DNA of 60,964 nucleotides from Calorimonas adulescens (GTDB lineage: Bacteria > Bacillota > Thermoanaerobacteria > Thermoanaerobacterales > UBA4877): contig NZ_VTPS01000017.1 in the NCBI RefSeq assembly GCF_008274215.1, positions 1-60,964 on the forward strand, given 5' to 3'. This document shows, piece by piece, positions 6,609-26,435 of this stretch. The notes under the pieces were generated by a model. It saw nothing but the letters and a program-made list of their open reading frames with translations. It did not search any database and had not been told where the DNA came from. Every line of letters begins with the position of its first letter. The stretch's first letter is position 1. Both the position numbers and the translations under genes were made by a program.

Positions 6609-6730
6609 GTTATCTTAGTTGAAAAGCATATAAAGGATGGCGGTAGCCTCATAAGCCAATAAAAATTTATACCGGAGGCAGGAATTTGCAAAATAGTATA
6701 GAATAATATAGAGTGAAAACTTAATTAGAT

Positions 6731-6821
6731 GGATGCTAGGGGAGCTTCTTTACTGAGGCTGAGAGGGGACACGTTCCCGACCCTTGAACCTGTCAGGATA
6801 ATACCTGCGTAGGAAAGCATG
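6731..6821 (+). promoter_or_regulatory. TPP riboswitch (THI element)
   Basis: The conserved TPP aptamer blocks are present in order: AGGGGAGC, GGCTGAGAGG, GACCCTTGAACCTG, GGATAATACCTGCGTAGG. The closing P1 stem is ATGCT (6733-6737) with AGCAT (6816-6820). Thiamine pyrophosphate binding stabilises P1 and favours the terminator that starts right after it, shutting off the thiamine-salvage operon. A weak promoter (TTGCAA 6686-6691, TATAGA 6707-6712) lies just upstream. Confidence 0.95.
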
Positions 6822-6852
6822 AAAGTGCCTTACACAGGGCACTTTTTATTTT
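6822..6852 (+). terminator. Riboswitch expression-platform terminator
   Basis: AAAGTGCCT (6822-6830) pairs with GGGCACTTT (6837-6845), followed by a T-rich tail. It abuts the 3' strand of the riboswitch P1 stem, as expected for a transcription-terminating TPP switch. Confidence 0.85.
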
Positions 6853-22359: not shown

Positions 22360-22380
22360 AAAGATTGTCAAAAAATTATT
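22360..22380 (+). repeat. 21-bp direct repeat flanking the RM cassette, left copy
   Basis: AAAGATTGTCAAAAAATTATT (one mismatch, 17 bp perfect at the start) matches 24530-24550. The two copies bracket the restriction-modification genes. Confidence 0.75.
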
Positions 22381-23011
22381 ACTCTTCTTCTAATCTTTTT
22401 ATTTCCTGCTTAATGTCATCTATTATCTCTTTGTTGTAAATAATTTTTTTATCTCCTTCTTTTATTGAAAATATGGTAAATACCTTACCACCATACATTT
22501 TTTGAAATGAAGTATGAGTATTTTCCTGCATTTCTTTCCATTTATAATCTTCAAATGTATGCTCGAATGAAATTGGTTTAATCTGAAGTCCTACATATGA
22601 ATCCCTTATTTTTATATAAAAGTCAACATTAAATAATCTATCCCATTCATCTGGTGCTGGTTCTATATGATAATTTATGTGACTTTGCAGTTGGCCATAT
22701 ATTGTGTGTATTTCCGTTTGATAACCTTCAAAAGTTCTGTCTATTACCACTTCTTTGATATAATTAATGCAATCCTCCTCGGTGACCTCAGCAATTTCAT
22801 GTTGGATAACCTCTGTGATTTTAATATATAATTTTTGACCAAGTTCTCGCAAATATGATTCTGGATGTACATTTTTATAATAATAATTTCGCCATTCATC
22901 AACCGTTTTTGGAGAACAATTTCTTATTAAATTTGAAACAGCACCTACGTATCTCTTTTTATTTAGCCCCCACCTGTTCATTGCCTGATTCAATATCCAC
23001 TCTTTTGACAT
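22379..23011 (-). CDS. MjaI-like type II restriction endonuclease
   Basis: The 210-residue protein begins with a segment (WGLNKKRYVGAVSNLIRNC, then SPKTVDEWRNYYY) that I associate with the MjaI family of restriction enzymes, which cleave CTAG. A likely PD-(D/E)xK-type core follows (DEWDRLFNVDFYIKI ... GLQIKPI), with Asp in NVDF and the GLQIK lysine as the probable active site. Its ATG lies inside the last 53 bp of the methyltransferase gene, so the pair is translationally coupled in the order methyltransferase then nuclease. The specificity is inferred from family resemblance. AT-rich codon use suggests transfer. Confidence 0.72.
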   Translation of the reverse strand: MSKEWILNQAMNRWGLNKKRYVGAVSNLIRNCSPKTVDEWRNYYYKNVHPESYLRELGQKLYIKITEVIQHEIAEVTEEDCINYIKEVVIDRTFEGYQTEIHTIYGQLQSHINYHIEPAPDEWDRLFNVDFYIKIRDSYVGLQIKPISFEHTFEDYKWKEMQENTHTSFQKMYGGKVFTIFSIKEGDKKIIYNKEIIDDIKQEIKRLEEE

Positions 23012-24299
23012 CGTGTGCCCCCCTATATTTGATAAATTTATTTTTGTATTTATACTCTATGGTGGTATCCACATCTACCAGATTACTCTTTACTAAGTGT
23101 CCATTTATAAAGGTTTTGTTTTTTAAGTATAGATAACACAGCAGATTACCGTTTTCATCAAACTTTTTCGTGTCAAATTTTAAAAATACTTTTTTTCCTA
23201 TAAGCATGTTATTCAAAAATTCAATAGCTTTCTGTTTGTTCTGTATGTTTTCTTTTATACCCAATAATTTAATCGTTAAGTTGTTGTCTAATATCAGCAT
23301 TTCAGGGCTGATTATTTTTTTGACACCTAAGAAATTAATGTTACTTTCAGAGGTACCATCAATCTTAGAACCAAAATTTAATTTTTTGGGGTCCACCTTT
23401 TTATCAATTTTTACTGGGTCTTTAAAAATATAAGGAAGTTTTTTGATTCTTTCATTATAATCTATCTTATCATTTTTATCCGTGATGAATTCTAAATGAG
23501 CATTATAAGTTTTATCATCACAATGAGAATTAAATTTTTCTTTTATAATAGGTAGATAATCATGATTGATTTCGTAACCAATGGAATTTCTTTGCAATAA
23601 TTTTGCCGCTAATGAGGTAGTACCACTACCGACAAATGGGTCTAAAACCGTATCACCAACGAAGCTAAACATTTTTATTAATCTGTATGGCAGTTCAACA
23701 GGGAACATGGCAAGGTGTTTATCCTGTTTTTCTCCGGGGAAATTCCAATGTCCAGAAAAGTATTGGTTCCATTCTTCTTTGGTCAATTTCGATTTTTCTT
23801 TGATATCTTTAGGGACTTTTGGAGCATTTCCAGGTTTTTTAAATATTAAAATGAATTCATAGTCAAGTTTTAAAATGCCATTTCTTGGATACGGATATGA
23901 ACCCATGACTGTGGCGCCCCCGGATGTATTGCATGTAGTAACCTTTTGCCAGATAATTGCACCCATATAATCAAATCCAATTGTCTCACAGAACTTAATT
24001 ATTTCTGTTCTAATTGGGATAATTTTATACCTGCCATAATAAACAGAACGTGCAAATTGGTCTCCGATATTGATACACAATCTGCAGCCCTTGTGAAGGA
24101 CACGATATGCTTCTTCCCATACTAAATTTAGATTATTTATATATTCTTCGTATGTATCATTATAACCTATTTGTTCATTGCTGCCATAATCTTTTAACTG
24201 CCAGTATGGTGGTGAGGTAATTATTAAATGTATGGATTCATTTTTTATTCTGCTCATATTGCGTGCGTCACCGAAAATTATTTTGTGAAATGTGTTCAT
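22959..24299 (-). CDS. DNA methyltransferase (N4-cytosine type) with C-terminal nuclease-fold-like domain
   Basis: Residues 1-255 form a beta-class amino-methyltransferase: catalytic TSPPYW (28-33) precedes the SAM motif FVGSGT (222-227). TSPPYW is typical of N4-cytosine enzymes such as those recognising CTAG. Residues about 320-425 resemble a staphylococcal-nuclease-like barrel (NLTIKLLGIKE ... DENGNLLCYLYLKNKTFING, LVKSNLVDVD), but the DGDT motif and catalytic arginines are not kept, so it is probably a binding module. GGGGG precedes the ATG. The enzyme should protect the host from the coupled endonuclease. A paralogous relic lies at 13490-13771. Confidence 0.85.
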   Translation of the reverse strand: MNTFHKIIFGDARNMSRIKNESIHLIITSPPYWQLKDYGSNEQIGYNDTYEEYINNLNLVWEEAYRVLHKGCRLCINIGDQFARSVYYGRYKIIPIRTEIIKFCETIGFDYMGAIIWQKVTTCNTSGGATVMGSYPYPRNGILKLDYEFILIFKKPGNAPKVPKDIKEKSKLTKEEWNQYFSGHWNFPGEKQDKHLAMFPVELPYRLIKMFSFVGDTVLDPFVGSGTTSLAAKLLQRNSIGYEINHDYLPIIKEKFNSHCDDKTYNAHLEFITDKNDKIDYNERIKKLPYIFKDPVKIDKKVDPKKLNFGSKIDGTSESNINFLGVKKIISPEMLILDNNLTIKLLGIKENIQNKQKAIEFLNNMLIGKKVFLKFDTKKFDENGNLLCYLYLKNKTFINGHLVKSNLVDVDTTIEYKYKNKFIKYRGAHDVKRVDIESGNEQVGAK

Positions 24300-24631: not shown

Positions 24632-25738
24632 TTGAACGGATTGGAAGGACTAAAAAAGACACCGCTCTTTGAGCTGCATAATAAGCTGGGGGCAAAAATA
24701 GTTGAGTTTGGCGGTTGGGCAATGCCAGTACAGTATTCGAGCATACTGGAAGAACACAGGGCCGTAAGAGAGAGGGTTGGCATCTTTGATGTGTCTCACA
24801 TGGGAGAGATAAGTGTCAGGGGAAGGGATGCTTTTGACTTTTTGCAGTATATACTGACCAACAATATGGGTAAACTTGAACCTGGCAAGATAGTCTATTC
24901 GCTTATGCTCTATGAAAATGGAGGTACAGTGGACGACTTTCTGGTCTACCAAATTGGGGAAAACGATTACTTGCTTGTGGTTAATGCTTCCAATACGGAG
25001 AAGGATTTTAACTGGATTAGAGAACATGCTCATGGTTTTGAAGTGGAAGTGAATAATATTTCTTCGATGTATGGTGAAGTGGCAGTTCAGGGGCCAATGG
25101 CAGAGGTCACATTACAGAAACTTACGGACTTTGAGCTTGGCAGCATACCGTATTATGAGTTTAGACACAATGTGATGCTATTAGGAATAGAAGTACTGAT
25201 ATCACGTACGGGATATACCGGAGAGGATGGTTTTGAGGTCTATATGGCTCCTGACAAGGCAGGGAAGCTTTGGGAGGAGATAATGGAGGCAGGGAAGGAG
25301 TATGGTATACTGCCGTGCGGCCTTGGTACCAGGGATACCCTGCGGTTTGAGGCAAGGATGCCCCTCTACGGGCATGAGCTGGATGAAAACACCACACCGC
25401 TGGAGGCCGGCCTCTCATTTGCAGTATCATTTGACAAGGACTTTATAGGGAAGGATGCCCTATTGAGGGAGAAAGAGGATGGGCTTAAAAAGAAGCTGGT
25501 TGGCTTTGAGATGGTGGATAAGGGTATACCGCGTAAGGATTATGAGGTATATAAGGATGGGGCAAAGATAGGCTATGTGACGACAGGGACACACTCGCCT
25601 ACCTTGGATAAAAACATAGGCCTGGCCTATGTAAAGCCTGACTATGCTAAGATTGGCGAGGAATTTGATATAATGATAAGGGGAAAAGCAAACAGGGCTG
25701 TGGTGGTAAAGACGCCATTCTATAAAAGGCAGGCATAG
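24632..25738 (+). CDS. gcvT: Glycine cleavage T protein (aminomethyltransferase)
   Basis: GcvT takes the aminomethyl group from the lipoyl arm of the H protein and passes it to tetrahydrofolate, releasing ammonia and forming methylene-THF. The 368-residue protein starts with KKTPLFELHNKLGAKIVEFGGWAMPVQY and contains GIFDVSHMGEI, ISRTGYTGEDGFEVYM and LGTRDTLRFEARMPLYGHEL, all diagnostic. The start is TTG 24632, seven bases after GGAGG. No glycine riboswitch is seen upstream. It is first in the gcv order and is separated from gcvH by an unusual 310-bp spacer. Confidence 0.96.
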   Translation: MNGLEGLKKTPLFELHNKLGAKIVEFGGWAMPVQYSSILEEHRAVRERVGIFDVSHMGEISVRGRDAFDFLQYILTNNMGKLEPGKIVYSLMLYENGGTVDDFLVYQIGENDYLLVVNASNTEKDFNWIREHAHGFEVEVNNISSMYGEVAVQGPMAEVTLQKLTDFELGSIPYYEFRHNVMLLGIEVLISRTGYTGEDGFEVYMAPDKAGKLWEEIMEAGKEYGILPCGLGTRDTLRFEARMPLYGHELDENTTPLEAGLSFAVSFDKDFIGKDALLREKEDGLKKKLVGFEMVDKGIPRKDYEVYKDGAKIGYVTTGTHSPTLDKNIGLAYVKPDYAKIGEEFDIMIRGKANRAVVVKTPFYKRQA

Positions 25739-25748
25739 CGACAGGGCC

Positions 25749-25994
25749 GGATGTTATTCCATGTATACAATTTGGCTGTAATTATTTACAAAGCGTGGCA
25801 TATAACATCCAAAGGCAGCATTAAAGCGAGTCTATGATACTCTTAATGAGAGGCAAATGCAGCCGGGGCATCTGGCATGGATGCCTGCTGAGCCGACGCT
25901 TAAGGCTTGCGGTGCCGAATGTAGGCGCGCCCGGCAAAGTGTAGACATAAATTGTAGAGCATCAGGAGGAGCGATCAAGTGCCGGGATGTTATT
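25749..25994 (+). other. Structured GC-rich spacer between gcvT and gcvH (candidate RNA or small mobile element)
   Basis: No gene is present. GGATGTTAT occurs at 25749-25757 and again at 25985-25993, and its exact complement ATAACATCC lies at 25802-25810, so one strand has two possible partners. Between them are TGTAA / TTACA (25777-25790), GAGT / ACTC (25828-25842), GGCATC / GATGCC (25867-25885) and a closing stem GCCGG / CCGGC (25862-25866 with 25931-25935) that would stack on it. The stretch 25860-25985 is much more GC-rich than the surrounding spacer. It does not match glycine, THF, TPP or cobalamin riboswitch consensus blocks as I know them. It could be a regulatory RNA or a miniature element. 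Confidence 0.5.
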
Positions 25995-26048
25995 GACATG
26001 CATATATCTGATTTTAATTAAACTATAAATAATAAGGAGGAGTAGGAT

Positions 26049-26435
26049 ATGCATTTTCCAGATGACCTTTATTATTCTGATGACCATGAATGGTTGAAGG
26101 TGGAAGGCAGCAGGGGGATCATAGGGATTACCGAATATGCCCAGGCAGAGCTGGGCGACGTGGTCTATGTGGAACTGCCATCGGTTGGGGACGAGTTTGA
26201 GGCGGGAGACAACTTTGGGGTGGTGGAGTCTGTGAAGTCTGTCTCAGACCTGTATATACCGGTGAGCGGCAGGGTGGTGGAGGTAAACGAGGAGCTGGAC
26301 GATTCCCCTGAACTGGTGAATCAGGACCCATATGGTAAAGGATGGATGATTGTGGTCGAACTGGATGACCCTGAGGAGACAGCAGACCTCATGAGTTCTG
26401 CTGAGTATGAGTCCTTTATCAAGGAGAGTGAATGA
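26049..26435 (+). CDS. gcvH: Glycine cleavage H protein
   Basis: GcvH carries the lipoyl group that shuttles the aminomethyl moiety among the P, T and L proteins. The 128-residue protein has the standard core DHEWLKVEG, YAQAELGDVVYVELPSVG and VVESVKSVSDLY; the lipoylated residue is Lys63. AAGGAGG precedes the ATG. It is followed after one base by gcvPA. The two radical SAM genes and the ligase downstream are the likely source of its lipoyl group. Confidence 0.97.
   Translation: MHFPDDLYYSDDHEWLKVEGSRGIIGITEYAQAELGDVVYVELPSVGDEFEAGDNFGVVESVKSVSDLYIPVSGRVVEVNEELDDSPELVNQDPYGKGWMIVVELDDPEETADLMSSAEYESFIKESE

Follow-up and report, generated by a model that had tools for sequence, protein, structure and literature searches.

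Bacterial MITEs and intergenic imperfect palindromes of the ERIC/NEMIS kind are short, non-coding, dispersed sequences that lie between genes, have inverted ends and target duplications, and lack a transposase. The CsrA antagonist known from Bacillota is a protein, FliW, rather than a sponge RNA. The TwoAYGGAY RNA (RF01731) was described in 2010 by Weinberg et al. as a probable RNA that is unlikely to be a cis-regulator or a riboswitch (PMC2864571). A proposal of 2014, argued from loop similarity, holds that TwoAYGGAY binds CsrA, and tandem G-A pairs in hairpin 2 are a feature of the family (PMC4333381). The CsrA site consensus is RUACARGGAUGU, with the GGA in a hairpin loop (PMC8668096). Rfam and the two TwoAYGGAY papers (PMC2864571, PMC4333381) describe an RNA motif only, whereas here the motif forms the inner part of a longer element that has inverted repeats and target duplications. 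What is new here is that miniature mobile elements carry the TwoAYGGAY RNA; a literature search, with supplements and most subscription papers outside its range, found no description of TwoAYGGAY within a mobile element. Since 2010 the family has remained an orphan among RNAs, and a location inside miniature mobile elements would explain its multicopy state without a fixed gene neighbourhood.

The window analysed is a stretch of 60,964 nucleotides from Calorimonas adulescens (genome G000), and the closest comparison is with G001, one genome of the same family. In the window, a spacer of 310 nt separates the end of gcvT (25738) from the start of gcvH (26049), and the other genes of the operon overlap or touch, so that the spacer breaks an otherwise compact operon, as the initial annotation had noted. 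That annotation had proposed a regulatory RNA for glycine cleavage with the geometry of a conformational switch or, alternatively, a miniature mobile element. Its observation of the spacer holds and its switch interpretation fails, while the mobile element that it offered as an alternative is correct as far as it goes. The features of the locus, in window coordinates, are as follows.

24632–25738, + strand: gcvT, the gene 5′ of the spacer
25739–26048, + strand: gcvT–gcvH spacer, 310 nt (12–15 nt in 15 related genomes)
25746–25772, + strand: putative relic right end of a second copy, GCCGGATGTTATTCCATGTATACAATT, which supplies the extra GGATGTTAT
25767–26029, + strand: near-full copy of the MITE-like element (aligned part 25770–26006; outermost ends estimated from the family consensus)
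25793–25810, + strand: left inverted-end arm, GCGTGGCATATAACATCC
25830–25844, + strand: long internal helix (helix 2), 5′ strand, GTCTATGATACTCTT; 95.1% of cells paired, 3 double-change pairs
25862–25867, + strand: closing GCCGGG/CCCGGC stem (helix 4), 5′ strand; 94.1% of cells paired, 3 double-change pairs
25874–25885, + strand: hairpin 1, GGC-AUGGAU-GCC, with an intact A-Y-GGA-Y hexaloop of CsrA type; GGA invariant in 43/43 copies
25904–25916, + strand: hairpin 2, GGC-UUGCGGU-GCC; the second loop is degenerate and lacks GGA both here and in the orthologue
25930–25935, + strand: closing stem (helix 4), 3′ strand
25955–25968, + strand: long internal helix (helix 2), 3′ strand
25985–26002, + strand: right inverted-end arm, GGATGTTATTGACATGCA
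26049–26435, + strand: gcvH, the gene 3′ of the spacer

Judged by its sequence features, the insert in the gcvT–gcvH spacer is a MITE-like mobile element, because (i) its copies are dispersed. A search for copies elsewhere in the genome found them scattered, with 21 matches in G000 to the 310-nt spacer query and 27 to the family consensus, and at least 40 matches to the element in G001; deduplicated copies number ~25 in G000 and, as a lower bound, 54 in G001. Near-full copies number 45 in total, 6 of them in G000, where truncation is common and several copies have internal deletions. (ii) The copies have inverted ends. Full copies are ~260 bp long and non-coding, and their long inverted ends are imperfect and extend inward from termini that resemble TTGATTTTACTGTAA; the end type is TTGATTTTACTGTAA...TTACAGTAAAATCAA plus inner arms, and the outermost ends are poorly kept in the focal copy. 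(iii) Direct target duplications of 8–14 bp, whose exact length is not fixed, flank a part of the copies. Among 42 near-full copies, 12 have a flank match score of at least 9, including a pair of orthologues of one insertion present in both genomes, versus 2.3% of mismatched flank pairs; a clear duplication is absent in about half of the copies, and none was resolved at the focal copy. (iv) One copy splits a gene. The G001 copy L115 lies inside a DUF438-hemerythrin gene, the pieces of which correspond to amino acids 1–41 and 36–242, and joining its flanks at the 14 bp duplication restores the DUF438-hemerythrin reading. This gene is whole in 5 genomes of other genera (G002, G003, G004, G006, and G008); its 5′ part is missing in G000, and in G001 we also read an apparent frameshift upstream. 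(v) The gcvT–gcvH gap is short in relatives. It measures 12–15 nt, with no insert, in 15 relatives with the same gene order, and two further relatives have the same gcvT–gcvH adjacency. The miniature mobile element named in the initial annotation is thus borne out by dispersal, inverted ends, target-site duplications, an interrupted gene and relatives without the insert. An IS256-type transposase, the one transposase family searched for, is absent from both G000 and G001, and such an enzyme was rejected as the mover; carriage of the element by a plasmid or phage was likewise rejected, as no match was found. Near the two ends of the 13.6 kb contig G000:C29, at positions 1001 and 13343, lie partial copies that share a left flank, which suggests a duplication or an assembly repeat.

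No Rfam family matched in the gcvT–gcvH spacer, including the glycine, folate and TPP riboswitches whose absence had been noted initially, and the focal copy had no match to RF01731. By contrast, the best element copies pass the RF01731 cut-off of 43 bits: in G000, L032 scored 58.1 bits and L031 53.7 bits, and a score of 49.7 bits was also reached by a copy in this genome. The focal copy is homologous to copies that pass the threshold (E = 2.8e-37 against the C20 copy). Most copies carry both hairpins with A-Y-GGA-Y loops, and the tandem G-A pairs of hairpin 2 can be written for them; the focal copy differs from the described family in having one intact loop, as loop 1 (AUGGAU, 25877–25882) is kept and the GGA of loop 2 is lost. 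The fold energy of the spacer is ordinary (−87 kcal/mol vs −83.7 ± 4.5 for shuffles, z = −0.73), so the real support for structure is the covariation between copies. On 43 aligned copies, a TwoAYGGAY-like structure leaves 93.6% of cells paired and has 14 double-change pairs, versus 6.6 ± 1.6 in shuffled and at most 6 in slid comparisons; for the second hairpin, an alternative pairing performs equally well on this alignment. None of the 43 copies departs from GGA in loop 1, and a hexaloop A-N-GGA-Y with different closing stems is present in most RF01731 loci of other Bacillota genomes. The sequences of the copies show selection on the element interior for base pairing and for a GGA hexaloop. 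We have high confidence in the combined identity, a MITE-like element whose interior encodes a TwoAYGGAY-type RNA.

The A-N-GGA-Y loop, by its letters, has the form of a CsrA site. Paired GGA hexaloops on short GC stems, like the CsrA site consensus, are shared with the CsrA/RsmA-titrating RNAs CsrB and RsmY, but the element has two loops per copy instead of many and dozens of genomic copies, and its CsrA binding is predicted. HEARO and IS605-orfB RNAs are likewise structured RNAs tied to mobile elements; the element differs from them in having no Rfam match to either and clear inverted ends, and no nuclease or transposase family recurs beside RF01731 loci among the 25 listed of 85 neighbour families, the contexts being mixed. 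All the features of MITEs and ERIC/NEMIS-like palindromes given above are common to the element, which differs in that its interior is a conserved, covarying RNA family found across many Bacillota families and in that some of its copies change at a slower rate than third codon positions do.

The pairings on which the initial annotation had built its switch can be read from the sequence: the strand ATAACATCC (25802–25810) has two partners GGATGTTAT, at 25749–25757 and 25985–25993, and the closing-stem strands GCCGGG (25862–25867) and CCCGGC (25930–25935) can pair. The copy at 25985–25993 belongs to the element's own inverted-end arm. The extra GGATGTTAT at 25749–25757 is most plausibly what is left of another copy adjacent to the near-full one: the segment 25746–25772 reads GCC-GGATGTTATT-CCATGTATACAATT against GCCGGGATGTTATTGACATGCATATAATT in the family right end, with a local score of 29 that was equalled by 0 of 2000 shuffles and by 0 of 4658 other 52-mers of the window. 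The two-partner geometry thus follows from an inverted-end arm and a relic end, and a two-state switch as its purpose was rejected in view of the probable relic-end origin of the extra strand.

Three orthologous copies with diverged surroundings, the gcvT–gcvH copy among them, are 92.2%, 92.0%, and 93.3% identical, against 67.6%, 58.5%, and 64.3% at nearby third codon positions; the locus pair L031/L069 was excluded from this comparison, as its whole region is ~96% identical. Between G000 and G001, which are split at genus level, the gcv spacer has zero indels over 310 nt, and the 17 differences in the core of the gcv copy break no pair of the family structure. Homogenisation between copies was rejected as the cause of this identity, since the focal orthologues are 91% alike and the focal copy is at most 82% identical to any near-full paralogue. 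The contrast with third codon positions indicates that some copies are retained under constraint, with the bias that freely decayed copies would escape recognition, and the constraint is not general, because many G000 copies are truncated. Functional retention of some copies, including that between gcvT and gcvH, is fairly likely. Between co-directional genes, near-full copies lie in sense 24 times and in antisense 9 times (p = 0.014), an excess that suggests read-through; for truncated copies the counts are 11 sense versus 13, and the difference between near-full and truncated copies is only suggestive (p = 0.055).

Relatives of the element exist in two further genera. In genus g3, a single-copy relative (L149–L154) occupies one conserved site in six species, between what we take to be a carboxyl-terminal-protease gene (ctp) and a glycerate-kinase-like gene (garK). 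It is ~95–97% identical in most species pairs (89–91% for an internally gapped copy), whereas third codon positions are mostly near 70% identical in garK and 81–84% in ctp. Some species have it in one orientation and others in the reverse, so that it is apparently an invertible conserved hairpin; the reversal argues for a function independent of read-through and fits poorly with simple read-through regulation. Genus g5 has a diverged relative whose inverted ends are different and of which the majority of genomes contain multiple copies (5–22 matches in most), and two g5 genomes have RF01731 matches below threshold. In two g5 genomes, a relative of the element lies just 3′ of a second gcvH-like gene (L258 in G009:C53, and G018:C1:94102-94690), possibly by coincidence.

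The structured interior had been interpreted initially as a regulatory RNA for glycine cleavage. The RNA part of that proposal stands, given the covariation and the better copies that are TwoAYGGAY, but specificity for glycine cleavage is unsupported, because copies lie in many gene neighbourhoods with no consistent arrangement. A cis-regulatory RNA or riboswitch dedicated to glycine cleavage and toggling between the two pairings of ATAACATCC is very improbable and largely refuted: the pairing is possible and the spacer is conserved between G000 and G001, but homologous copies are present at many other loci, no riboswitch family matches, the extra partner strand is the relic end of another copy, and the insert is absent in 15 relatives with the same gene order. 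A CsrA-sponge small RNA, transcribed independently from many dispersed gene copies and not by read-through, is also improbable, if less remote. The CsrA-type hexaloops, the published CsrA proposal for TwoAYGGAY (PMC4333381) and the conservation of the g3 copy in both orientations, expected if its transcription is its own, speak for such an RNA; against it, no promoter or terminator signal in the focal spacer exceeds chance, the sense excess of intact copies between co-directional genes (24 vs 9) suggests read-through, and csrA is equally common in relatives without the element.

A mere MITE that no longer serves the cell is possible but somewhat doubtful; its structure and loops would then be leftovers of the needs of mobility, and its gcv copy a tolerated passenger. 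Dispersal, inverted ends, target duplications, the many truncated copies, the inconsistent arrangement of neighbouring genes, and a fold energy usual for the composition are all in keeping with it. It is at odds with the three orthologous copies that are 92–93% identical where third codon positions are 58–68% identical, with the 310-nt gcv spacer that lacks an indel across a genus-level split, and with the g3 single-copy relative (~95–97% identity in most pairs, one copy being gapped, against garK third positions mostly near 70%). The best explanation overall, which we consider likely, is an old MITE-like insertion with a TwoAYGGAY-type RNA that has probably been retained.

According to this explanation of an old, retained insertion, the element entered a gcvT–gcvH gap of 12–15 nt, beside the remnant of a second copy, and the short gap in 15 relatives places this entry most simply before the split of G000 and G001. 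As the element carries no gene of its own, a transposase supplied in trans presumably acted on the inverted ends to move it. The copy may then be read through within the gcvT-gcvH-gcvPA-gcvPB transcript, where its RNA could form a single long, branched hairpin; this would set the gcvT portion of the message apart from the gcvH-P portion and might protect or cut the mRNA at that point. More speculatively, the folded copy would present a CsrA-type loop, and CsrA might bind loop 1. Copies unusually unchanged since the split may have been retained for such a separator or loop role, and we infer that the gcvT–gcvH copy may regulate glycine cleavage. CsrA as the ligand of the element RNA is a tentative candidate, suggested by the loop. 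The csrA gene is present in both G000 and G001; its presence was set aside as a discriminator, because nearly all relatives have it (35 of 37 genomes of the class). The mobile-element setting makes the 2014 CsrA proposal directly testable at one defined locus. Should the retained copies act via CsrA, mobile elements would provide a route by which whole operons join a global post-transcriptional regulon in Bacillota; otherwise, the slow evolution of the hairpins calls for a different explanation.

Of 398 Bacillota genomes sampled, 51 contain RF01731, frequently with as many copies as were scored; where the flanks are long enough, most loci show long inverted repeats that reach past the Rfam model. 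In two unrelated genomes, G153 (L269–L273) and G286 (L286–L288), TwoAYGGAY copies with inverted ends CAGACTG(T/A)AGACAAA were seen by eye to lie between two copies of the same terminator-like hairpin, which suggests insertion at terminators with long duplications and thus a different target rule there. A wider conjecture, which we regard as rather unlikely, is that TwoAYGGAY is the cargo of several Bacillota mini-element families that differ in ends and target rules and scatter CsrA-type hairpins, that the kept copies are regulators, and that the element can thereby write genes into a CsrA-type regulon, gcvT–gcvH being one case.

Two riboswitches were recorded in passing: a TPP riboswitch (RF00059, 72.4 bits, + strand, 6728–6832) in the window, far from the gcv spacer, and a strong lysine riboswitch (131 bits, L059 1273–1450, − strand) beside an element copy in G001. 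Upstream of gcvT, a minus-strand gene pair (22379–24299), presumably a DNA methyltransferase and a restriction endonuclease to judge from their resemblance, lies between a metallo-beta-lactamase-fold gene and gcvT, where it takes up the place at which the window would show an empty site for the G001 copy upstream of gcvT. The equivalent of this gap in G001 holds only a second element copy.
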